Of a stretch of 64,000 bases of DNA, positions 4,677-25,485 are shown piece after piece. The notes below the pieces were generated by a model. It searched no databases. It was given only the letters and a program-made list of their open reading frames with translations, and was not told where the DNA came from. How positions within the stretch are numbered: position 1 is the stretch's first letter; the number at the start of each line of letters is the position of its first letter. The stretch comes from Pelagibacteraceae bacterium AG-390-O04 (lineage in GTDB: Bacteria; Pseudomonadota; Alphaproteobacteria; Pelagibacterales; Pelagibacteraceae). Both the position numbers and the translations under genes were made by a program. The stretch is from contig QCHE01000004.1 in the NCBI GenBank assembly GCA_003278065.1, positions 1 to 64,000 on the forward strand, in the 5' to 3' direction.

Positions 4677-5257
4677 TTAAAATTGTTTAAATATTCTTTA
4701 ATTTTTTTAATTGGCAAACCCATTATTGTATTTTCATCTCCTTCTATATGTGAAAACAAATTTCTACCCTCTCCTTCAATTTGATAAACATTATAAGAAT
4801 ATAATGCTGTATCTGATATTTTAGACAAATAGTTTTTGAGTTCTTTTTCTGTCATGTCTTTCATAGTTAATACTGCTTTATCTGTATAATTCCACAACAT
4901 AGAACCATTTTTTGAAATACAGACTGAACTTATTAAGTTGTGTTTTTTGCCATTGAGTTTTTTTAAGATATTTAAAGCCTCATCTCTATTAGATGGCTTT
5001 GATATCAATTCACCATTTAAATCAATTACACTATCTGCTCCTAATACTAAATTAATATTATCATTTGTACTTACTTTGTTAGCTTTTAGTTCAGCTAAAT
5101 TTTTAGAAATAATTTCTGGAGAAGCGCTGTTTTTTAAAAGACTTCTTTTAATAGTATCTTCATCCACATTTGATGGTTTAACAACGCATGATAAATTATT
5201 TTTATTAAGAATTTCTTTTCTGACTTTGCTTTTTGACGCAAGTATCAAATTAAACAT
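4673..5257 (-). CDS. maf: Maf-family nucleotide pyrophosphatase
   Basis: LILASKSKVRKEIL...LGADSVI...SYNVYQIEGEGRNLFSHIEGDENTIMGLPI. Confidence 0.92.
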   Translation of the reverse strand: MFNLILASKSKVRKEILNKNNLSCVVKPSNVDEDTIKRSLLKNSASPEIISKNLAELKANKVSTNDNINLVLGADSVIDLNGELISKPSNRDEALNILKKLNGKKHNLISSVCISKNGSMLWNYTDKAVLTMKDMTEKELKNYLSKISDTALYSYNVYQIEGEGRNLFSHIEGDENTIMGLPIKKIKEYLNNFK

Positions 5258-6074
5258 TTTCTTTATAAATTTCGTAAATTTTTATTACTGATGCAGCAGT
5301 TTCTTCAACAGATTTTCTAGTTACATCAATTGTTGGCCACTTATACTTTCTAAAAGTATTTTTTGCTTCATCAACTTCTTTTTTTATTTTTTCAAGACTT
5401 GTATAAGATTTATTTTCTGTCTCTCTAATTGAGTTCATTCTATTTTTTCTCAAATCTACAAGTCGTTCTGGTTCTGTATTTAAACCTACTACGCAGGTGA
5501 TCTTAGGATTATCTTTTAATATTTTTGGTATAGAGTTCTCATTTACTAAAGGAATATTAGATATTTTAAACCCTTTGTTTGCTAAATAAATAGATGTTGG
5601 TGTTTTGCTTGTACGACTTACGCCTAATAAAATTATATCAGATTTGTTTATTTCCTTAACTAAATGTCCATCATCATGATTCATGGTAAATTGAATTGCT
5701 TCTATTCTCTTATAATATTCATCATTTAATTCATATTGGCCACTTGGTTGATGAGAGGCTTTTTGATTAAGTAGTTTCGAAAAGCTTAAAATTAGATCAC
5801 CCAATATACCGAAACAAGGGATCTTTTTATCATCACATGTATTTGCTAAATATTTGGCCAAATTACTTTCAACAATTGAATATAAAATTATAGAATTTGG
5901 ATTTTTTTCAGCCTCAGATAATATTTTTAAAATTTGATTTTCTGTGCGTGTAAAAGAATATGTGTGAATTTTATAATTTATATTTGTAAATTGTGCTTTA
6001 ATAGCTGTAAAAATTCTATCCAAAGTCTCTCCCGTGGAATCTGAAATTAAGTAAATCTGATATGTATTGCCCAT
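5250..6074 (-). CDS. Pyruvate, phosphate dikinase regulatory protein / PEP synthetase regulatory protein (PPSR, DUF299)
   Basis: IYLISDSTGETLDRI, ADIILLGVSRTSKTPTSIYLANKGFKISNIPLV. Confidence 0.93.
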   Translation of the reverse strand: MGNTYQIYLISDSTGETLDRIFTAIKAQFTNINYKIHTYSFTRTENQILKILSEAEKNPNSIILYSIVESNLAKYLANTCDDKKIPCFGILGDLILSFSKLLNQKASHQPSGQYELNDEYYKRIEAIQFTMNHDDGHLVKEINKSDIILLGVSRTSKTPTSIYLANKGFKISNIPLVNENSIPKILKDNPKITCVVGLNTEPERLVDLRKNRMNSIRETENKSYTSLEKIKKEVDEAKNTFRKYKWPTIDVTRKSVEETAASVIKIYEIYKENV

Positions 6075-6345
6075 GTATAAATAGTTAATAAATATGTATT
6101 ATTATAATAAAATTACTCAATTTAAATTTAGTTTTAAAAATCCTGTAAAATAAGGTTTTTGTTAACAATAATAAACATGTGACTTAAATTATACACAAAA
6201 TTTAAAAAAGTTTTAAAAAACTTGATTTTAAACGATATTATTGAGCTTTAGATGTGATTATATGGTTAATATAATGTTAATAAAAATTAATTATTGTTAT
6301 TCACAGGACATAACATAACTACAATAATTAAATACTTATTTTTAT
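6075..6345. other. oriC: Candidate chromosomal replication origin (oriC)
   Basis: Long AT-rich non-coding gap immediately 5' of hemE. Contains TTATACACA (6189-6197) and TTATTCACA (6297-6305), both matching TTATNCACA. Flanking gene blocks are divergent. Confidence 0.8.
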
Positions 6346-7347
6346 ATGACTCCATTACAAAGAGTAATTAAAGAAAATAACACTACATTAAATCCCATAT
6401 GGATTATGAGACAAGCAGGTAGGTATTTACCTGAATTTAGAGAAATTAGATCTAAAAATCCAGATTTTATAAAATTATGTTTAAATCCAAATTTATCTAC
6501 TGAGATAACCCTTCAACCATTAAAAAGATTTGATTTTGATGCAGCAATTATTTTTTCAGATATATTAATGTTACCTTATGGCTTAAAGCAAAAAGTAGAA
6601 TTTAAAAAAAATTTTGGCCCTATATTAGGAAAACTTAATTTAAATGAAATATCTAAGGTGGAAGAAATTGATTTTGTGGAAAGGGTCCAGCAAATTTATA
6701 AAGCTATAAAAAATGTAAGTAATAATAATATTTTAAAAGATAAAAATACCATAGGCTTTATTGGAGCTCCATGGACTCTATTAGTTTATATGATAAATCA
6801 ACAATCTCCCAAAAAACAATTAAAAAAAGATTTTTTTGAGAATAAAGATTTAATAAATAATATTTTAATTATTATTGAAAAATTTTTAAAAATTCATATT
6901 AAAAATCAAATAGATAGTGGTGCAAATTTAATTCAAATATTTGATAGTTGGGCAGGATTATTAGAAAATAAGGATTTGCCATATTATGTATATAATCCAA
7001 CTTTTAATTTAGTAAAATTTACTCAATCTTTAAATACACCCGTCATATGTTTTCCAAGAAATATTAAAGATTATAAAAGATATTGTGACTTTATAAAACC
7101 CGATGCAATTTGTATTGACTATGAAGTTGATCCATTAAAAATAGAAAAAGAAATAAGCATACCTATACAAGGCGGAATGGACCCAAAAGTTTTACTTACA
7201 GACAAAGAAAATATAAAAAAAGAAGCAACCAAATATTTAGATATTTTTAAAGATCATCCATATATTTTTAATCTGGGCCATGGAGTATTGCCAGAAACAA
7301 ACCCAGAAATGATGGAGTATCTAGTTAAAACCGTAAAAGATTATTAA
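6346..7347 (+). CDS. hemE: Uroporphyrinogen decarboxylase
   Basis: PIWIMRQAGRYLPEFREIR, IIFSDILMLPYGL, GFIGAPWTLLVYM, NLGHGVLPETNPE. Confidence 0.97.
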   Translation: MTPLQRVIKENNTTLNPIWIMRQAGRYLPEFREIRSKNPDFIKLCLNPNLSTEITLQPLKRFDFDAAIIFSDILMLPYGLKQKVEFKKNFGPILGKLNLNEISKVEEIDFVERVQQIYKAIKNVSNNNILKDKNTIGFIGAPWTLLVYMINQQSPKKQLKKDFFENKDLINNILIIIEKFLKIHIKNQIDSGANLIQIFDSWAGLLENKDLPYYVYNPTFNLVKFTQSLNTPVICFPRNIKDYKRYCDFIKPDAICIDYEVDPLKIEKEISIPIQGGMDPKVLLTDKENIKKEATKYLDIFKDHPYIFNLGHGVLPETNPEMMEYLVKTVKDY

Positions 7348-8345
7348 TGAAAAAAGATTTAGAACATCCACCTATAAATTTTGGAAAAACTGGGGTTTTA
7401 ATAATAAATCTAGGAACCCCAGACTCAACAAGTTGGTTAGACATAAGAAAATATCTAAAAGAATTTTTATCTGACAGAAGAGTAATAGAAGTAAATCCTA
7501 TAATATGGCAAATTATATTAAATGTTTTTATATTAAATTTAAGACCCTCGAAAACAGCAAAAGCTTATAAAGAAATATGGATGAAAGAAGAAAATATTTC
7601 TCCCCTTTTATATTATACAAAAAAACAAGCAGAAAAATTATCAATCTCAATATCTAAAGAAAATTTAGTAGTAGATTATGCTATGAGGTATGGAAATCCA
7701 AGCATTAGAAGCAAGATAAAAACTCTTCATGAAATGGGTTGTGAAAATTTAGTAATACTTCCGTTATATCCTCAATATGCTGCTGCCACTACAGCCACTG
7801 TTTGTGACGAAGTATATAGAACACTTATGAAAATGAGGTGGCAACCGTCGCTTAAAATAATTCCACATTATGAGTCTGATCCTTTATATATAGAAGCATT
7901 AGTTAACTCCTTGAATAAGAAGATTAAAGATATTAATTGGAAACCAGATCTAATATTAGCTTCCTATCACGGAATTCCTCAAAAATATTTTGATAAAGGA
8001 GATCCTTATCATTGCTACTGTCATAAAACCACAAGACTAATATCTGAGAAATTTAACTCCATTGAAATCAAGACCACATTTCAGTCTAGATTTGGTCCAC
8101 AAAAATGGCTTCAACCTTATACTGATAAGGCTTTAGAAAACTTGCCAGCTGAAGGAAAAAAAAATGTTTTAGCCATTTGTCCTGGCTTTTCTTCAGATTG
8201 TGTTGAAACTCTGGAAGAAATACTTATTCAAGGCAAAGAGAGTTTTTTAAATTCCGGCGGTGAAAATTTTGACATGGTACCATGTCTAAACGATAGTGAA
8301 GACCATATTGTGTTATTAAAATCCTTAATTCAAAAAAGTATATAA
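7347..8345 (+). CDS. hemH: Ferrochelatase
   Basis: GVLIINLGTPDS, LPLYPQYAAATTATVCDEV, ASYHGIPQKY, CPGFSSDCVETLEEI. Confidence 0.97.
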   Translation: MKKDLEHPPINFGKTGVLIINLGTPDSTSWLDIRKYLKEFLSDRRVIEVNPIIWQIILNVFILNLRPSKTAKAYKEIWMKEENISPLLYYTKKQAEKLSISISKENLVVDYAMRYGNPSIRSKIKTLHEMGCENLVILPLYPQYAAATTATVCDEVYRTLMKMRWQPSLKIIPHYESDPLYIEALVNSLNKKIKDINWKPDLILASYHGIPQKYFDKGDPYHCYCHKTTRLISEKFNSIEIKTTFQSRFGPQKWLQPYTDKALENLPAEGKKNVLAICPGFSSDCVETLEEILIQGKESFLNSGGENFDMVPCLNDSEDHIVLLKSLIQKSI

Positions 8346-8348
8346 TTA

Positions 8349-8783
8349 ATGAATACTTACTTACTTTTTAAATCATTACATCTAATAGCGGTAATTTCTT
8401 GGATGGCTGGACTATTATATTTACCAAGAATTTTTGTTTATCACTCCCAAAATAATGCTCAACCAATTATTTCAGAAGTATTTAAAGTGATGGAAAAAAA
8501 ACTTTTCTATTACATAATGACTCCAGCAATGATTTTATCATGGATATTTGGTTTAATATTAATTCATGAAATTGGATTTGATAAATTGGGACAAAAATGG
8601 ATGATTTTAAAATTGATTTTTGTAGTTTTATTAACGCTTTATCATCTTTACCTTGGGAAAATTCTTGGCCAATTTAAACTAGACTCAAACAAGCATTCAC
8701 ATAAATTCTACAGATATATAAATGAAATACCCACATTATTGCTTATTTTAATCATTTTTGTTGTGATATTTAAGCCTATCTAG
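8349..8783 (+). CDS. hemJ: Protoporphyrinogen oxidase HemJ
   Basis: KSLHLIAVISWMAGLLYLPRIFVYH membrane protein next to hemE/hemH. Confidence 0.9.
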   Translation: MNTYLLFKSLHLIAVISWMAGLLYLPRIFVYHSQNNAQPIISEVFKVMEKKLFYYIMTPAMILSWIFGLILIHEIGFDKLGQKWMILKLIFVVLLTLYHLYLGKILGQFKLDSNKHSHKFYRYINEIPTLLLILIIFVVIFKPI

Positions 8784-8847
8784 GGTTGAATATTTATGAA
8801 TTGTATATATATTAGGTTAATTATTAAGTCCTTAATAATTTTAAATC

Positions 8848-10116
8848 ATGAACATACAAGAACTAAAACTTAAATCATCTGAACAGCTTATTACACAAGC
8901 AGAAGAGCTTGGAATAGAAAATGCTAGTACGCTAAGAAAACAAGAAATACTTTTTGCAATTTTAAAAAAAGTTGCAGAAAAAGAGGAAATAACTGGTGCG
9001 GGAGTTTTACAATTACTACAGGATGGCTTTGGTTTTTTGAGAGCAATGGAATCAAATTACCTTCCGGGGCCAGATGATATTTATGTAAGCCCAAGTCAAA
9101 TAAGAAAATTTGGATTAAGAACAGGTGACACAGTAGAGGGTCCAGTTAGAGCCCCAAAAGAGGGAGAGCGATACTTCGCACTACTACAAGTAAGTAAAAT
9201 TAATTTTGAAGAACCTGAAAAAGCAAGACATAAAATTGCATTTGATAACCTCACACCATTGTATCCAGACAAACAGTTGATAATGGAAGTTGAAACTACA
9301 AAGGTTGAAAAGAAAACTGATCTTACACCAAGGTTAATTGATTTAGTAAGCCCAATTGGAAAAGGTCAAAGATCAATAATAATTTCCCCACCAAAAGCTG
9401 GTAAAACAATGATTTTACAAAGTATTGCAAACTCCATCGCAAAAAATTATCCAGAGTGTTACCTGATAGTATTACTAATTGATGAGCGTCCAGAAGAAGT
9501 TACTGATATGCAAAGAACTGTTAAGGGTGAAGTTATCAGCTCAACTTTTGATGAGCCTGCACAAAGACACGTGGCTGTTGCTGAAATGGTTATAGAGAAA
9601 GCAAAAAGATTAACAGAGCATAAAAAAGATGTTGTAATACTTTTAGATTCTATAACGAGATTAGGAAGAGCTTATAATGCAGTGATACCAAGTTCAGGAA
9701 AAGTTTTAACAGGTGGTGTCGATGCAAATGCACTACAAAGACCAAAAAGATTTTTTGGAGCAGCGAGAAACATTGAGGAAGGTGGTTCATTAACTATTAT
9801 TTCTACTGCTTTAATAGACACCGGAAGTAGAATGGACGAAGTTATCTTTGAAGAATTTAAAGGAACAGGAAATAGTGAAACTGTTTTAGACAGAAAAATT
9901 GCTGATAAAAGAATTTATCCTGCAATAGACATAACTAAATCTGGCACTAGACGAGAAGAGCTTTTGTTTGATAAAAATGACTTACAAAAAATGAATGTTT
10001 TAAGAAGAATTATTGCTCCAATGGGAACAATGGATGCTATTGAATTTATTAGCTCAAAATTAAAAGATACCAAAAACAATGCGGAATTCTTTAATTCAAT
10101 GAATAAACCTGCATAA
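8848..10116 (+). CDS. rho: Transcription termination factor Rho
   Basis: [58 protein letters not shown]. Confidence 0.98.
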
Positions 10117-10157
10117 TTTTTTTATTATTTCCTAAGATTTGTTGTATTATTTTTTCT

Positions 10158-11840
10158 ATGGAGACTAATAGTGCAGATTTAAAAAAACTTTTTAATGAAA
10201 AAAAATATTCAATAATTGTTGATATTATTGAAAATAAAATTAGTGAGAAAGATAAAAATTCCGGACTATTAAATTTATTAGGAGTTTGTAAATTTTTAAA
10301 TAATAGCAACAAAGAAACTCTTAAATCTGCAAAAGACGATTTTAGAAGAGCATATTTAAAAGAAAAAGACACTCCAAATGCATTTCATGCTCTTAAGAAT
10401 TTTATAAATATCTCAATGGATTTATTTGATATTGAGTTTAGATCGGGAGAGGCTTGTAACGAAAAAATTTTTGAAGAAATACTTTCATATTTTAATGAAA
10501 ATGAGGATTATTTTAAAAAAAATGAAGGACTTGCACAATCAATTATTAGAGTATTTAAACGAAATTTAGATCTAGATAATGTAATTAATTATTTAAAAAA
10601 AATAATTGAACTTAATGATAAGAATATAGACGCTTTATGTACATATATTTATTTTAATTGTTTTAAAAATGACTGGAATCAAAAAAATTTTTTAGAATAT
10701 TCTAGATTATTAAATAAAAAACTACCGTTATATCCAAAAGAAAAGTTAACAAGTTTAAAAGAAAATAAAGATAAAAAAATTAATTTAGCCTTTTTATCTT
10801 CTGACATAAGATCAAATCATTCCGTAAGTTTTTTCTTAAAAACAGTTTTAATAAATTATAACAAAGAAAAATTTAATATTTTCATATATTTCAATAATCA
10901 AAAAGAAGATAAAACATCTAACGAATTTAAAAAATATGTTTTTAAATCAAGAAATATTTTTCATTTAAATGATATTGAAGCAATTAATTTAATTAGATCC
11001 GATAAAATCGATATAATTATTGATCTAATGGGTATAACATCGAGTCATCGATTGCCATTATTCAAAAACCGCATAGCGAAAAACCAATTACTGTGGTGTG
11101 GTTATAATAATACAACAGGCGTTGATCACATGGATTATTTGATTTCCGATAAATATTTAATTTTAGAAAATGAAGAAAATTTATATTCAGAAAAAATTAT
11201 TCGTTTAGAAAATATTTGGAACTGTCACTCAGGATTTTCAGGAAATAGAGAATTTATTGAAGCACCATTTAAAACTAATAAATATGTTACTTTTTGTTCA
11301 TTTAACAATTTTAGAAAAATTAATGATAATGTCATAAATGTTTGGTCATCTATTTTAAAACAAGTACCTAATTCCAAATTAATTTTGTCCCCATCCGATA
11401 CTGCCTCTTTTTCAATCATATCGAAAAAATTTAAAAATAAAGGTGTTTTAGACTCAATAATTTTTCAAACATATAAAAAAAATTATGAGGACCATTTGAA
11501 TGAATATAAAAATATTGATATTGCACTTGATACTTTCCCCTACAATGGAGTCACAACATCTTTTGAAGCAATTTGGATGGGTGTTCCAGTTTTAACTATA
11601 AAAGGATATAATTTTAATTCTCGCACAGGTGAGTCTATTAATAATAATCTGGATTTAAAAGAGTTAGTAAGTGAAGATGAAGAAGATTATATTAAAAAGG
11701 CCGTGTCTTATTGTGCAGATACAGATAAAATTATAAATTTAAGGAAAATAATCTTTGACAAAGCACTAAAGTCTCCTTTATTTGATAAAGAAAAATTTTC
11801 AAATCAATTTTATACTTCTCTAGAAAAAATAAATAAATAA
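10158..11840 (+). CDS. TPR-containing O-GlcNAc transferase/SPINDLY-like glycosyltransferase (GT41-type)
   Basis: N-terminal helical repeats; C-terminal NLAFLSSDIRSNHSVSFF, DIIIDLMGITSSHRLPLFKNRIAKNQLLWCGYNNTTGVDHMDYLISD, IDIALDTFPYNGVTTSFEAIWMGVPVLTIKG. Confidence 0.8.
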   Translation: METNSADLKKLFNEKKYSIIVDIIENKISEKDKNSGLLNLLGVCKFLNNSNKETLKSAKDDFRRAYLKEKDTPNAFHALKNFINISMDLFDIEFRSGEACNEKIFEEILSYFNENEDYFKKNEGLAQSIIRVFKRNLDLDNVINYLKKIIELNDKNIDALCTYIYFNCFKNDWNQKNFLEYSRLLNKKLPLYPKEKLTSLKENKDKKINLAFLSSDIRSNHSVSFFLKTVLINYNKEKFNIFIYFNNQKEDKTSNEFKKYVFKSRNIFHLNDIEAINLIRSDKIDIIIDLMGITSSHRLPLFKNRIAKNQLLWCGYNNTTGVDHMDYLISDKYLILENEENLYSEKIIRLENIWNCHSGFSGNREFIEAPFKTNKYVTFCSFNNFRKINDNVINVWSSILKQVPNSKLILSPSDTASFSIISKKFKNKGVLDSIIFQTYKKNYEDHLNEYKNIDIALDTFPYNGVTTSFEAIWMGVPVLTIKGYNFNSRTGESINNNLDLKELVSEDEEDYIKKAVSYCADTDKIINLRKIIFDKALKSPLFDKEKFSNQFYTSLEKINK

Positions 11841-11852
11841 TTACTTAATGAT

Positions 11853-13184
11853 ATGAATATTTATGCTTTATCCTCCGGTCCAGGAACATCTGGTATAGCA
11901 GTAATAAGAATTTCAGGTAAAGATACATCCGAAATTATAAAATCTATCACTCAAAAACCTGTTCCGAAGCCAAGAGAGGCAACATTAAGAAAAATAAACA
12001 ATATCAACACTTATAAGCTGATTGATGAGGGGATAATATTGTGGTTTCCTGGCCCTCAGAGCTACACAGGTGAGGATATGGCAGAAATCCAAGTGCATGG
12101 TGGAAAAGCCGTAATTCAAGCTGTCCTTAATTCAATTTCAAGTTTTAAAGATTGTCGTTTAGCGGAGCCAGGAGAATTTACTAAGTTAGCTTTTCAAAAT
12201 GGCAAGATAAATTTGCTTAAAGCAGAAAGCATTGCAGATTTGATTTCAGCAGAAACTGAAATCCAAAGATTACAAGCTATTAAAATAATGAAAGGAAAAT
12301 CTTCTGAGAAATTTAATCAATTAAGAGACAAATTATTAAAAACTCTTTCATTTGTTGAAGCTAAAATAGATTTTCCCGAGGAAGATCTTCCAGAAGAAAA
12401 TTTAAAAAAAATAAAAAAAGATTCTTCATCAGTTCTAAATGAAATAAATAAAATTTTGAATGATCAAAAAGTTGGAGAAATAATTCGTGAAGGATTTAAA
12501 ATTGCAATTGTAGGACCAACAAACGCAGGTAAATCCAGTCTATTAAATAATCTATCTAATAGAGAAGTTGCTATAGTTTCAGAAATGGCTGGAACCACAA
12601 GAGATGTTATTGAAACACATTTAAATATAGATGGATATCCTGTAATAATTTCTGATACAGCTGGTATAAGAGATTCAAAAGATGAAATTGAAAAAAAAGG
12701 AATTAAATTATCTCTTAGTAAAGCCGAAAATGCAGACTTAAAATTAGTAGTAGTAGATGCTAAAAGGGTTGATATTAGCGGCTTTTTGAATGATTTATTA
12801 AAAAAAGATGCGATATTAGTAGTTAATAAATCAGATCTTTTAAAAGAAAAATTAGACCCAGAAATTTATAAGCTTGAACATGTTCTAATTTCACTAAAAG
12901 ATAATTTAAATGTCGATAAATTAATTTCTAAAATAAAAAATAATTTAAAAAATAAATTTATATCTGAAGAGGATATTTTAATCACTAGGGAAAGACATAG
13001 ACAACATTTATTGCAGTGTGCAGATTATTTAAAAAATTTTTTGGATAAAAATGATAAAAAGGATTTTGACAAAGCAGCTGAGGATTTGAGATTAGCAACT
13101 AGACATTTAGGTATGATTGTTGGAAAAGTTGATGTAGAGGAGATATTAGGTAGTATTTTCAACGATTTTTGTATTGGAAAATAA
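11853..13184 (+). CDS. mnmE: tRNA modification GTPase MnmE
   Basis: ALSSGPGTSGIAVIRISG, VGPTNAGKSSLLNNL, EMAGTTRDVIE, C-terminal FCIGK. Confidence 0.97.
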   Translation: MNIYALSSGPGTSGIAVIRISGKDTSEIIKSITQKPVPKPREATLRKINNINTYKLIDEGIILWFPGPQSYTGEDMAEIQVHGGKAVIQAVLNSISSFKDCRLAEPGEFTKLAFQNGKINLLKAESIADLISAETEIQRLQAIKIMKGKSSEKFNQLRDKLLKTLSFVEAKIDFPEEDLPEENLKKIKKDSSSVLNEINKILNDQKVGEIIREGFKIAIVGPTNAGKSSLLNNLSNREVAIVSEMAGTTRDVIETHLNIDGYPVIISDTAGIRDSKDEIEKKGIKLSLSKAENADLKLVVVDAKRVDISGFLNDLLKKDAILVVNKSDLLKEKLDPEIYKLEHVLISLKDNLNVDKLISKIKNNLKNKFISEEDILITRERHRQHLLQCADYLKNFLDKNDKKDFDKAAEDLRLATRHLGMIVGKVDVEEILGSIFNDFCIGK

Positions 13185-13300
13185 TATCGATTTTACTGTA
13201 TTTTAAGGCCTTTTTTCACTATTTTCGTTGATAAATATAGCTTATTTAAGAAAAAAAACTCAAATCTTGTAAATATTTTAATCGAATATAAATTTAAATC

Positions 13301-15172
13301 ATGAAAAAAGATTTATCTTTTGATGTAGTAGTGATTGGTGGAGGCCATGCAGGTTGTGAAGCAGCAGCAGCATCCGCACGGCTTGGAATTAACACCGCCC
13401 TCTTCACTCACAATAAAGACACTATAGGTGAAATGTCATGTAATCCTGCTATCGGTGGTTTAGGCAAAGGACATTTGGTAAGAGAAATTGATGCTTTAGA
13501 TGGGGTGATGGGTGAGGTAGCTGATAAATCTGGAATTCAATTTAAACTGTTAAATAGGAGTAGAGGACCAGCAGTAAGAGGACCTCGAACTCAATCCGAT
13601 AGATCACTATATCGTAAATTTATGCAAGAAAAACTTGTAAACTACTGTAATTTAAGCATTTTTTCTGATCCGGTAATTAAGTTTATTTTTTCAAATAACG
13701 AAATAAATGGATTTATAACAGAAAAAGGTAACAAAGTAAGTTGTAGTAAGTTAATCTTAACAACAGGCACATTTTTAAATGGTTTGATACATATTGGAGA
13801 TGAGAAAACGCCAGCAGGTCGATTTAATGAAAAACCTAGCACAGGTTTAAGTGAACAGTTAGATAAATACAATTTTAAGATTGGTAGATTAAAAACTGGA
13901 ACACCCCCTAGATTAGATTCTAGGACTATTAACTTTGAAAATTTAGAAAAACAATTCGCTGATGATAAACCTTATTTTTTTTCTTTCTTAACAAAAAAAA
14001 ATTTAAATAAGCAGGTCTCGTGCTCAATGACCTATACGAATGAAAAGGTTCATAAGATTATTGAAAAGAATTTAACTAAAAGTGCTATGTACTCAGGTAG
14101 CATTCAAGGTGTTGGCCCAAGATATTGTCCTTCGATAGAGGATAAGATTGTAAAATTCGCAGATAAAACCAGGCATCAGATATTTTTAGAGCCAGAAGGC
14201 CTTAATGATCACACTATATATCCAAATGGCATATCCACATCTCTACCAGAGGTTGTGCAATACGAAATACTCAACAATATCAATGGTTTAGAAGACGTAA
14301 AAATAATTAGGCCTGGATATGCTATAGAATACGACTACATTGACCCTAGAGAACTTTTTCTGACATTGGAAACAAAAAAAATAAAGAATTTATATCTTGC
14401 TGGACAAATTAATGGAACCACAGGATATGAGGAAGCAGCAGCTCAAGGTCTTATAGCAGGTATTAATGCTGCTCTTTCTATTAAAAATATGGAGCCTTTT
14501 ATCTTGGACAGATCTGATGCTTATATTGGAGTAATGATCGATGATTTGGTAACCAAAGGTGTTGCTGAACCATATAGAATGTTTACATCTCGAGCTGAGT
14601 ATAGATTAAGCCTAAGATCTGATAATGCAGATTTGAGGCTCACCAATAAAGGTATTAAGATTGGACTAATATCAGAGCCTAGAAAACAAGCTTTTGAGGA
14701 TAAATTTGTTAAATTAAGCAAAATCTCTATGCAAATGAATATTCTTAATATATCTCCCTCTAGAGCAGATAAATTTGGTATTAAAATAGCGAAAGATGGT
14801 GTTTTTAGAACTGCAGAAGAAATTTTGACCCAAAAAGGTGTAAATATGAAGAAAATTAGAGGTATTTGGCCTGAAATCTTAGATCATGGTGATGAGATAG
14901 ATGAGCAGATCGAGATCAACTCCCATTATCGAGGCTATTTAAAAAAACAAAAAGCCGATATTTTAGCTTTTAAGAGAGATGAGAACTTATTAATTCCAAA
15001 TAACATTGATTACGATCAATTTTCTGGTCTTTCTAATGAGGTAAAAGCTAAATTTAAGGAAATTAGACCCAAAACTATGGGTCAGGCACTTAGAATAGAT
15101 GGAATTACCCCTGCTGCTGTATATATTTTGTTGTCACACGTTAAAAGAAAGTCTATTAAGCATATAGCTTAA
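13301..15172 (+). CDS. mnmG: tRNA uridine-5-carboxymethylaminomethyl modification enzyme MnmG
   Basis: [59 protein letters not shown]. Confidence 0.98.
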
Positions 15173-15819
15173 TGGATAACATAATTTTAAATTCTTATTC
15201 TAAAATTTCAGATTTAAATGTTTCACGTGAAACTTGTAATGAGCTCGAGAGCTTAATTTCTATGATTCAAGCAAAAAACAGAGAAATTAACATTATAAGT
15301 AAAAAAATATATGAAAAAGAGGCAATAAGAGAGCGACATATTATTGATTCTGCACAAATCATTGATTTTGTTGATTTAAATTGTAATACAACCTCTGATT
15401 TAGGTACAGGAGGAGGTATGCCTGGTCTAATAGTAGCAATAGTAATGAAACAAATTAAAAATAGTATGAAAGTTACTCTTTACGAAAAAAGCTACCATAA
15501 ATGTGTCTTTTTAAAAGAAGTTTCGAAAAAATTGAATTTGAACACAGAAATAATTCAAAAAGATATTTTTACAGTTAAAAATATTGAAACAGGAACAATA
15601 ATGTCGAGAGCTTTTAAACCAATGCCAGTTATTCTTAATTTAATAAATCAAAATTTTAAAAAACATAAAAATGTTATTTTATTTATGGGAAACACAGGAA
15701 GAAAAATATTGAATGAAACTCTTAAAGAGTGGGATTTGGATTTTGAAGAAAAAAAAAGTTTAACAAGCGAAGGCTCTTTTATATTAAACATAAAAAAAAT
15801 AAGAAAAAAAATTTCATGA
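15172..15819 (+). CDS. rsmG: 16S rRNA (guanine527-N7)-methyltransferase RsmG
   Basis: INIISKKIYEKEAIRERHIIDSAQI, DLGTGGGMPGLIVAI; between mnmG and parA. Confidence 0.93.
   Translation: MDNIILNSYSKISDLNVSRETCNELESLISMIQAKNREINIISKKIYEKEAIRERHIIDSAQIIDFVDLNCNTTSDLGTGGGMPGLIVAIVMKQIKNSMKVTLYEKSYHKCVFLKEVSKKLNLNTEIIQKDIFTVKNIETGTIMSRAFKPMPVILNLINQNFKKHKNVILFMGNTGRKILNETLKEWDLDFEEKKSLTSEGSFILNIKKIRKKIS
15219..15234. promoter_or_regulatory. parS: parS-like centromere site embedded in rsmG CDS
   Basis: TGTTTCACGTGAAACT, 15/16 match to TGTTTCACGTGAAACA; about 600 bp upstream of parA. Confidence 0.88.
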
Positions 15820-16610
15820 AAATTATTTCAATAATTAATCAAAAAGGTGGGGTAGGGAAAACAACTACTGTAATAAATCTAGCTTCAGCATTATCTCAAC
15901 AAGGAAAAAAAATTTTAGTAATTGATTTAGATCCTCAGGGAAACGCTACAACAGGATTAGGACTCTCTAACACAGAGCAATCAGATCTTACAATTTATGG
16001 CATTCTTAACGGGACAAGCTCAATTACAGATGTTATTAAAAAAACAGATTTTAAAAATCTGGATTTAATACCATCAAATGTTGATCTGTCTGGTTTGGAG
16101 GTAGAAACGGCTGGAGATAGTGATAGAGCTTTTATATTGAAGGGCAAATTAACCGCTTATTTGAATGATTCTAGAGCCTTTTATGACTATGTTTTAATAG
16201 ATTGCCCACCATCTTTAAGTTTGCTGACCGTTATGGCTTTAGTATCATCTAACTCATTGTTAGTTCCTCTTCAAACAGAATTTTTTGCATTGGAGGGTCT
16301 GACACAGCTAATGAAAACTATAGAAAGAATAAAAGTCAATTTAAATCCAAATTTAGAAATGCAAGGTATACTTCTGACTATGTACGATAAAAGAAATAAA
16401 CTTTCTTCAGAGGTAGAATCAGAAGCTAGAAATTATTTTAAAGAAAAAGTGTATCAAACTGTTATTCCAAGAAATGTAAGATTGTCAGAAGCACCCTCTC
16501 ACGGAATACCAGTTTTAATATATGATAAAAATTGTCCTGGTAGTAAAGCTTACTACGGGTTTACAGATGAGTTTATGAATCAAGAAAATAATATTGGAAG
16601 TGCAGCATAA
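15816..16610 (+). CDS. parA: Chromosome partitioning ATPase ParA
   Basis: IISIINQKGGVGKTTTVINLASAL, VLIDCPPSLSLLTVMAL. Confidence 0.96.
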   Translation: MKIISIINQKGGVGKTTTVINLASALSQQGKKILVIDLDPQGNATTGLGLSNTEQSDLTIYGILNGTSSITDVIKKTDFKNLDLIPSNVDLSGLEVETAGDSDRAFILKGKLTAYLNDSRAFYDYVLIDCPPSLSLLTVMALVSSNSLLVPLQTEFFALEGLTQLMKTIERIKVNLNPNLEMQGILLTMYDKRNKLSSEVESEARNYFKEKVYQTVIPRNVRLSEAPSHGIPVLIYDKNCPGSKAYYGFTDEFMNQENNIGSAA

Positions 16611-17458
16611 TGGACTCAAATAAAATCAAAAAAGGCTTAGGACGTGGTCTATCTTCATTAATTGGTGAGAGCAGTAAAGACATAAAAACTAATAAGTTAA
16701 GATTGAATGATTTAATCCCAAATAGTTATCAACCAAGAAAAAATTTCGATGAAGATAGTTTAAATGATTTAACTAATTCAATAAAAGAAAGAGGCGTAAT
16801 TCAACCAATCATAGTTAGAAAATCAAAAAAAGAAAATTCGAAACACGAAATTATAGCTGGAGAGAGAAGGTGGCTTGCCGCTCAAAAAGCGGGACTAAAT
16901 GATATTCCGGTTGTAGTTGTAGAAGCTGATGATTTGAAATCATTAGAATTTGCAATAGTTGAAAATGTTCAAAGGCATGATTTAAATCCCTTGGAGGAAG
17001 CTCAAGGGTACAAACGTTTAATCAATGAATTTGCATATGATCAGGAAAAAGTATCTAAATTCATTGGAAAAAGCAGAAGTTATATAACAAATTCTTTGAG
17101 AATTTTAACTCTTCCAAATGAAGTAATAAAATTAATAGAGGGAAAAAAACTTACAACAGGCCATGCTAAAATCTTGGTAGGCTTAGAAAATTCAGTTTTT
17201 GTGGCAAACAAGATTGTCGAAAAAAAATTGTCTGTAAGACAGGCAGAAAATTTTGTTAAAATTTTTAAATCAAAAAAACAAAAAAATAGTAATTTTAAAG
17301 ATTCTAATATAATCGATTTAGAAAAATCTATTATCGAAAAAATTGGCCTTTCTGTATCAATTAAAAACAATAAAAAAAACCAAGGAAGTATTACTTTTTC
17401 ATATAAAGAAATTAACCAATTAAATAAAATAATTGAAATTATAAAATCTTATTATTAG
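16610..17458 (+). CDS. parB: Chromosome partitioning protein ParB
   Basis: GLGRGLSSLIGE, RLNDLIPNSYQPRKNFD, HEIIAGERRWLAAQKAGL, IVENVQRHDLNPLEEAQGY. Confidence 0.97.
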   Translation: MDSNKIKKGLGRGLSSLIGESSKDIKTNKLRLNDLIPNSYQPRKNFDEDSLNDLTNSIKERGVIQPIIVRKSKKENSKHEIIAGERRWLAAQKAGLNDIPVVVVEADDLKSLEFAIVENVQRHDLNPLEEAQGYKRLINEFAYDQEKVSKFIGKSRSYITNSLRILTLPNEVIKLIEGKKLTTGHAKILVGLENSVFVANKIVEKKLSVRQAENFVKIFKSKKQKNSNFKDSNIIDLEKSIIEKIGLSVSIKNNKKNQGSITFSYKEINQLNKIIEIIKSYY

Positions 17459-23188: not shown

Positions 23189-23209
23189 TTTAAATTAGAT
23201 TCAAAATTT

Positions 23210-23243
23210 AAAAAGGCCCCTTTTTAAGGGGCCTTTTTTTTTA
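23210..23243 (+). terminator. Rho-independent terminator of porin gene
   Basis: AAAAAGGCCCCTTTTTAAGGGGCCTTTTTTTTT hairpin plus T run. Confidence 0.93.
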
Positions 23244-23772
23244 TCTAAAATATGAAATTCCAGCAAAGCCAAAATTATTTGTCAATTTCAGTTTTGATAT
23301 ATTTTTTTCATTAATTCCTCCAAGAGCAATTATTTTTTTTTTAGTATAATTAGAGAAAATCTTAAACTTATTAAGACCGAGAAAATTTTTATTTCTTTTA
23401 AATATTGAAGATAAAAATATAAGATCTACTTTTTGTAATTCTTTTATTCTAATTTCTTTTAAATTATGTGCAGATCCTAAAATAGTAAAATTATCATTTA
23501 AATTATATGATAAATGAGAAAAATTATGGTTAAATGAGGGAATATAAACCCCATCAAGATTTAATTTAACAGCAATCTTTATGTTGTTTGCTATATAAAA
23601 CTTAACTTTCCTTTTTTTAAGATAATATTTAATTTTTTTTCAATTTATAAAAATCTAAGAGTTTCAGGTCGTAATTTCGATAAATAATACCAATTTGTGG
23701 GTTAATTTTATCTAATAAATTAATATCAAAAGAGTCAATGAAATGATATTTTTTTGGAAATTTATGAAACAT
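23241..23772 (-). CDS. ThiE/TenI-like thiamine phosphate synthase family protein; frame broken by apparent -1 in a T8 (A8) tract at 23633-23640; absent from supplied ORF track
   Basis: Manual minus-strand translation: MFHKFPKKYHFIDSFDINLLDKINPQIGIIYRNYDLKLLDFYKLKK / (frameshift) / KLNIILKKRKVKFYIANNIKIAVKLNLDGVYIPSFNHNF...FTILGSAHNLKEI...VDLIFLSSIF...IIALGGINEKNISKL...FGFAGISYFR*. Confidence 0.75.
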
Positions 23773-24921: not shown

Positions 24922-25485
24922 ATGAATTTGAGAAAAATAATCTTTTATCAACATGATGTTTTGTTTGATATTTTTAATGAAATTAAAGAAGAATTTGACT
25001 TTGATTTAATTAAAGCAGATAAAAAAATTCTTGAAAATTATCGAATGAACTCAGATCCTGATTACTTAATTATTTCAAAATCCAAAGATATAAAATTTAA
25101 GAATCAAATTGTTATTGATAAAGTTCCAATTAAAATTGACAAGCTTATTGAACAAATTAATCTAAAATTTTTAAAAGAAAAATTTAATTATCAATCTGAA
25201 ATATTAATTGGTCCATATAAATTAAATTTAAATTCTAGAGAAATAAGTAGAAATAAAATTTCTTTAGATTTAACAGAAAGGGAAATAAATTTAATTCTTT
25301 TTCTTAAAAAAGTTTCTTTACCAGTTAAAATCGAAAAACTTGAAAAAGAAGTTTGGGAATATAATTCAGAGCTAGAGACACATACTGTTGAAACTCATAT
25401 TTATCGTTTAAGAAAAAAGATAAAAGAAAAATTTAATGATGAAAATTTTATTTTAAGCTCAAAACAAGGATATTCCATTAAATGA
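24922..25485 (+). CDS. OmpR/PhoB-type winged-helix regulator with degenerate receiver region
   Basis: C-terminal LDLTEREINLILFLKK...LEKEVWEYNSELETHTVETHIYRLRKKIKEKF...FILSSKQGYSIK; no canonical phosphoacceptor-type receiver motif at N-terminus. Confidence 0.8.
   Translation: MNLRKIIFYQHDVLFDIFNEIKEEFDFDLIKADKKILENYRMNSDPDYLIISKSKDIKFKNQIVIDKVPIKIDKLIEQINLKFLKEKFNYQSEILIGPYKLNLNSREISRNKISLDLTEREINLILFLKKVSLPVKIEKLEKEVWEYNSELETHTVETHIYRLRKKIKEKFNDENFILSSKQGYSIK

Follow-up and report, generated by a model that had tools for sequence, protein, structure and literature searches.

The intergenic gap between PPSR and hemE as the probable chromosomal replication origin of a SAR11 bacterium

Where on its chromosome does a SAR11 bacterium begin replication? 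SAR11 bacteria rank among the ocean's most abundant cell types, and a fixed origin is needed when growth is estimated from sequencing depth. One SAR11 study located the origin via GC skew (PMC9516812), and the oriC of HTCC1062 was identified manually in a report whose text gives no position (PMC4033161). In the literature searched we found no published mapping of a SAR11 origin to hemE; a DoriC prediction may exist. The question is raised by an AT-rich gap between PPSR and hemE, which an initial annotation had proposed as a replication origin. The gap lies in the window analyzed here, a stretch of 64,000 nt of contig QCHE01000004.1 from Pelagibacteraceae bacterium AG-390-O04. Based on the sequence comparisons described below, we consider it roughly 94% probable that chromosome replication in this SAR11 bacterium starts in this gap.

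PPSR and hemE are divergent, and their starts bound the gap (Table 1). The coordinates of the open reading frames agree with those first given for the gap, its AT-richness was confirmed, and Pfam supports both flanking genes. The gene directions were also as described: from hemE to parB (6346-17458) all genes point rightward, and the majority of those to the left of the gap point leftward. The first impression that no non-coding stretch is longer than the gap did not hold, since the one at 23189-23628 exceeds it. G012, the one complete congeneric genome analyzed, consists of a single contig of 1,343,202 b; its orthologous gap ranks 55th by length among 190 intergenic gaps. No Rfam family and no tRNA were found in the window, and the single-strand folding of the gap was unremarkable (z -1.0).

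Table 1. Coordinates of the proposed origin, its candidate DnaA sites and neighboring features in the window
Feature	Position	Strand	Remarks
Left flank, PPSR (COG1806, Kinase-PPPase, PF03618)	5250..6074	-	Pfam
Proposed origin region, PPSR/hemE intergenic gap	6075..6345	.	271 b, 84% AT
DnaA-box-like site near PPSR	6083..6091	-	Window copy TTATTAACT, 1 mismatch; TTATNMACA exact at this column in 61/100 relatives
Mid-gap DnaA-box-like site	6159..6167	+	Window copy TTGTTAACA, 1 mismatch; exact in 77/100
Distal box of the initial annotation, TTATACACA	6189..6197	+	Exact in window, without conservation
Array site -44	6253..6261	-	TGTGATTAT, weak in window, 6/8; offset peak in 23 representatives
Array site -33	6264..6272	-	GGTTAATAT, weak in window, 6/8; offset peak in 23 representatives
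Array site -22	6275..6283	-	TTATTAACA on minus strand; strongest offset peak; exact in 58/100
Anchor (proximal) DnaA box, TTATTCACA	6297..6305	+	3′ end towards hemE; best-conserved box, exact in 71/100
DnaA-trio-like triplet position	6310..6321	+	ATA ACA TAA CTA in window, out of frame; regular in relatives
AT-rich stretch to hemE start, proposed unwinding site	6322..6345	.	Inferred
Right flank, hemE (URO-D, PF01208)	6346..7347	+	Pfam
parS-like site TGTTTCACGTGAAACT	15219..15234	.	1 mismatch; inside rsmG frame; 9 kb from gap
parA and parB	15816..17458	+	

Exact DnaA boxes are not enriched over the whole window (3 observed versus 3.75 expected), so the number of boxes alone proves nothing. The signal lies in their placement. 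The two exact TTATNCACA boxes reported for the gap are present, at 6189-6197 and 6297-6305, and among the 42 exact sites in the organism's own draft genome (1.057 Mb, 89% complete) they form the sole pair within 2 kb. In G012 the orthologous gap (1,261,949-1,262,209) is the sole 300-b stretch with two exact TTATNCACA boxes and likewise the sole one with three matches to the degenerate form TTATNMACA; no other intergenic gap among the 190 of at least 100 b holds more than one box. Across the gaps of 29 relatives, exact TTATNCACA occurred 24 times compared with 0.9 ± 1.0 in dinucleotide shuffles, and TTATNMACA 83 times compared with 5.5 ± 2.4.

We also used nucleotide skew in G012 to locate the origin. 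The raw cumulative skews reached one extreme at 616-621 kb; the opposite extreme was broad and best placed at ~1,231 kb, where GC, TA and purine skew all turn, 31 kb from the gap. This turn, together with a second dip at ~38 kb in the cumulative GC skew of the window, would favor an origin elsewhere nearby, either at the raw-skew extremum (about 37-39 kb in the window) or beside dnaA, which in the organism's own genome lies at C4:69311, 63 kb from the gap. However, gene orientation shifts the extremum of raw cumulative skew, which was therefore not accepted as evidence on its own. For this reason a corrected fit was made, in which the third-codon-position GC and AT skew of each gene was described by one term for gene strand and one for replication arm. 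This fit placed the switch best at 1,272 kb, and the gap, at 1,262 kb, is 10 kb away. Compared with the best switch, the gap cost 2.0 in -2lnL, the raw extremum 5-7 and dnaA (1,199 kb) about 12 or more. A block bootstrap gave a median of 1,272 kb and a 10-90% range of 1,262-1,311 kb, with a 2.5% tail reaching to 1,195 kb. The skew check suggested for the gap thus came out in its favor for the corrected switch and not for the raw extremum; the corrected skew agrees with the gap as origin at a precision of tens of kb. G012 has no box cluster at dnaA or at the raw extremum, and the organism's own contig has no exact box near dnaA. We consider an origin at either of these places very improbable. 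Skew on contig C1 of G037, a genome of the sister family, gave no usable localization of a switch.

Using a 16-base consensus and allowing up to two mismatches, we found parS 7-10 kb from the gap in four genomes. Besides the site in the window, G012 has a single parS-like locus at 1,254,719, 7 kb from its gap; G037 has one exact site 10 kb from the hemE gap; and G004 has an exact site 8.6 kb from hemE and two weaker sites, one of them nearby. Together with the unique box cluster and the corrected skew switch in G012, the proximity of parS supports the reading of the gap as a replication origin. A second parS-like site with one mismatch was observed in the organism's own genome at C14:994-1009, distant from the window; it was not seen in G012.

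Conservation was assessed in 100 distinct SAR11 gaps of 261-285 b, taken from genus relatives and from Pelagibacteraceae single-cell and MAG contigs. Only one of the two boxes in the initial annotation proved to be conserved: exact TTATTCACA is found at the position of the 6297 box in 71 of the 100 gaps, while the 6189 box is not conserved, even among the nearest relatives. Where the proximal box is not exact, a close variant mostly occupies the same position, TTATTAACA and TTATCAACA being frequent. Because of this replacement in place, TTATNMACA was treated as the SAR11 box, and we infer that it is the SAR11 consensus. In every relative the proximal box, used here as an anchor, sits ~50 b upstream of hemE. 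When 23 representatives with >25% mutual difference were aligned on the anchor, TGTKNATAA peaked at -44, -33 and -22, and the 70 b upstream held no other peak. The array is made up of three same-strand boxes exactly 11 bp apart, with 2 bp between neighbors; only the -22 copy is exact in the window. An ordered layout is conserved, consisting of the PPSR-side and mid-gap boxes, the array, the facing anchor, a 4-nt spacer, (A/C)TA triplets and AT-rich DNA up to hemE.

The triplets were analyzed in 26 representatives. At offsets 5-16 past the anchor they have a middle T (0.76; 0.15 and 0.04 in the other phases) and a final A (0.95), and a joint column permutation in which relatedness was kept gave p ~0.007 for this period-3 signal. 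On the other strand the triplets read 3′-NAT-5′, which is the form of the DnaA-trio, with its consensus 3′-GAT-5′ (PMC8287927). In 20 of 29 relatives a box lies 0-16 bp from at least three in-frame NAN triplets. The remaining 9 reach only two, several representatives are without the third triplet, and the copy in the window has no in-frame run of three; since the triplets in the window are out of frame, the trio claim is limited for this particular genome. A strict scan for a box with four (A/C/T)TA triplets, at least two of them CTA, gave no match in G012 or G037:C1, and in a run-length scan the G012 gap came out among the top six boxes. Consequently, the triplets alone do not single out the gap. 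These observations, apart from the run-length scan, would fit an origin at which the triplets are not working DnaA-trios and the array and AT-rich DNA alone drive opening. Such an origin would not account for the phase-specific signal in the representatives or for CTACTACTACTA, the near-perfect CTA repeat of two genomes of the sister family. We believe that the triplets are unlikely to be non-functional, although this alternative deserves to be taken seriously.

The gap is at the same time a divergent promoter region, and its anchor box keeps its place ahead of hemE in all relatives. The conserved sites could then be a shared PPSR/hemE regulatory region only, for instance one in which DnaA controls hemE transcription. 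Under this reading the skew switch, the nearby parS, the triplets and a box cluster found nowhere else in the genome would go unexplained. It is also at odds with the sister family in the same order, which swaps the PPSR side and retains the hemE side: no PPSR motif was found beside hemE in 11 oriented loci (L203-L214, without L212), and the hemE side keeps box-like sites, GG, triplets and TATATATA. A promoter function and nothing else is, in our judgment, the least credible of the alternatives and very improbable, while dual use as origin and hemE promoter is possible. In the sister family, a Maf-like frame, as judged by its N-terminal residues, was seen to occupy the place of PPSR beside hemE.

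The SAR11 gap resembles known origins in several respects. Caulobacter Cori and Rickettsia ori, which the initial annotation had correctly placed beside hemE, share its hemE/COG1806 flanks (PMC1914354), and origins of this type are likewise AT-rich with several DnaA boxes and parAB nearby. The gaps are similar in size, though the SAR11 ones are shorter, at 261-285 b compared with about 384-404 b in the Caulobacter/Rickettsia type. In the left half of E. coli oriC (R1, weak-site array, DUE) an anchor box also adjoins the AT-rich opening site, and the weak sites are 2 bp apart, as in the SAR11 array (PMC6727663). In contrast to E. coli, the neighboring genes are different and one three-site array was recognized in SAR11. 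The order of box, short spacer, 3′-NAT-5′ triplets and AT-rich DNA resembles that in the basal unwinding system of B. subtilis, H. pylori and others (PMC8287927), from which SAR11 differs in that the triplets are degenerate in much of the group, those of the window being out of frame. The sister-family genomes also resemble this system, with two adjacent box-like sites and GG ahead of the triplets.

SAR11 also departs from the hemE/COG1806 type in its regulators. A CtrA ortholog was not found in four genomes (best match 32% identity), in agreement with PMC2877005, and the CtrA brake of Caulobacter therefore seems absent. In the gaps of 29 relatives TTAA-N7-TTAA sites were weakly enriched (20 versus 8.5 ± 3.2), and the IHF consensus showed no excess (3 versus 2.8 expected), though a diverged site is possible. 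CtrA sites vary among hemE/COG1806-type origins, and some members have none. Since no CtrA ortholog was found, we class the SAR11 gap with this type by position and boxes only and not as CtrA-controlled. We could not uphold the idea that TTAA-N7-TTAA merely reflects the box array, as 14 of 40 coincide. A CcrM-family methylase, GcrA and three HU/IHF-family genes are present in the four genomes checked. DnaA-domain (PF00308) searches of the organism's own genome and G012 returned dnaA alone and thus gave no Hda homologue in either genome.

Two further observations were made. GANTC, the site of CcrM methylation, occurs only twice in the 27,297 b of the 100 PPSR/hemE gaps; it is possibly depleted at the origin, with 2 sites versus 4.5 expected in the 29-gap set, which is not significant. 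At 24922-25485 (+) of the window, ~19 kb from the proposed origin, a 187-aa protein is encoded with an OmpR-type winged helix (PF00486) and no Pfam-recognized receiver domain. A weak match in the CtrA search of G012 (C1:1244426-1244725) lies at a similar distance from the origin and is probably the counterpart of this gene.

From the arrangement of sites we infer how such an origin may fire. DnaA would bind the anchor box together with the conserved mid-gap and PPSR-side boxes, after which ATP-DnaA would fill the weaker, helically phased boxes of the array on the opposite strand. Directed by the anchor, the DnaA oligomer would grow towards hemE onto the strand carrying the trio-like triplets, and the AT-rich DNA beside hemE would open for helicase loading. 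Forks would depart in both directions, and ParAB acting on parS 9 kb away would separate the sister origins.

The site of this proposed origin is the textbook one for alphaproteobacteria; what our analysis adds is the detailed, conserved arrangement of DnaA sites. The layout of boxes, array and trio gives DnaA binding tests, and the study of replication timing without CtrA, a concrete target. Tentatively, and with more doubt than confidence, we suggest that SAR11 may possess a pared-down version of the alphaproteobacterial origin that lacks CtrA and apparently Hda as well, at which timing would be set mainly by DnaA filling a rigid array phased at 11 bp ahead of the trio module, a regulator-poor design kept in streamlined ocean bacteria.
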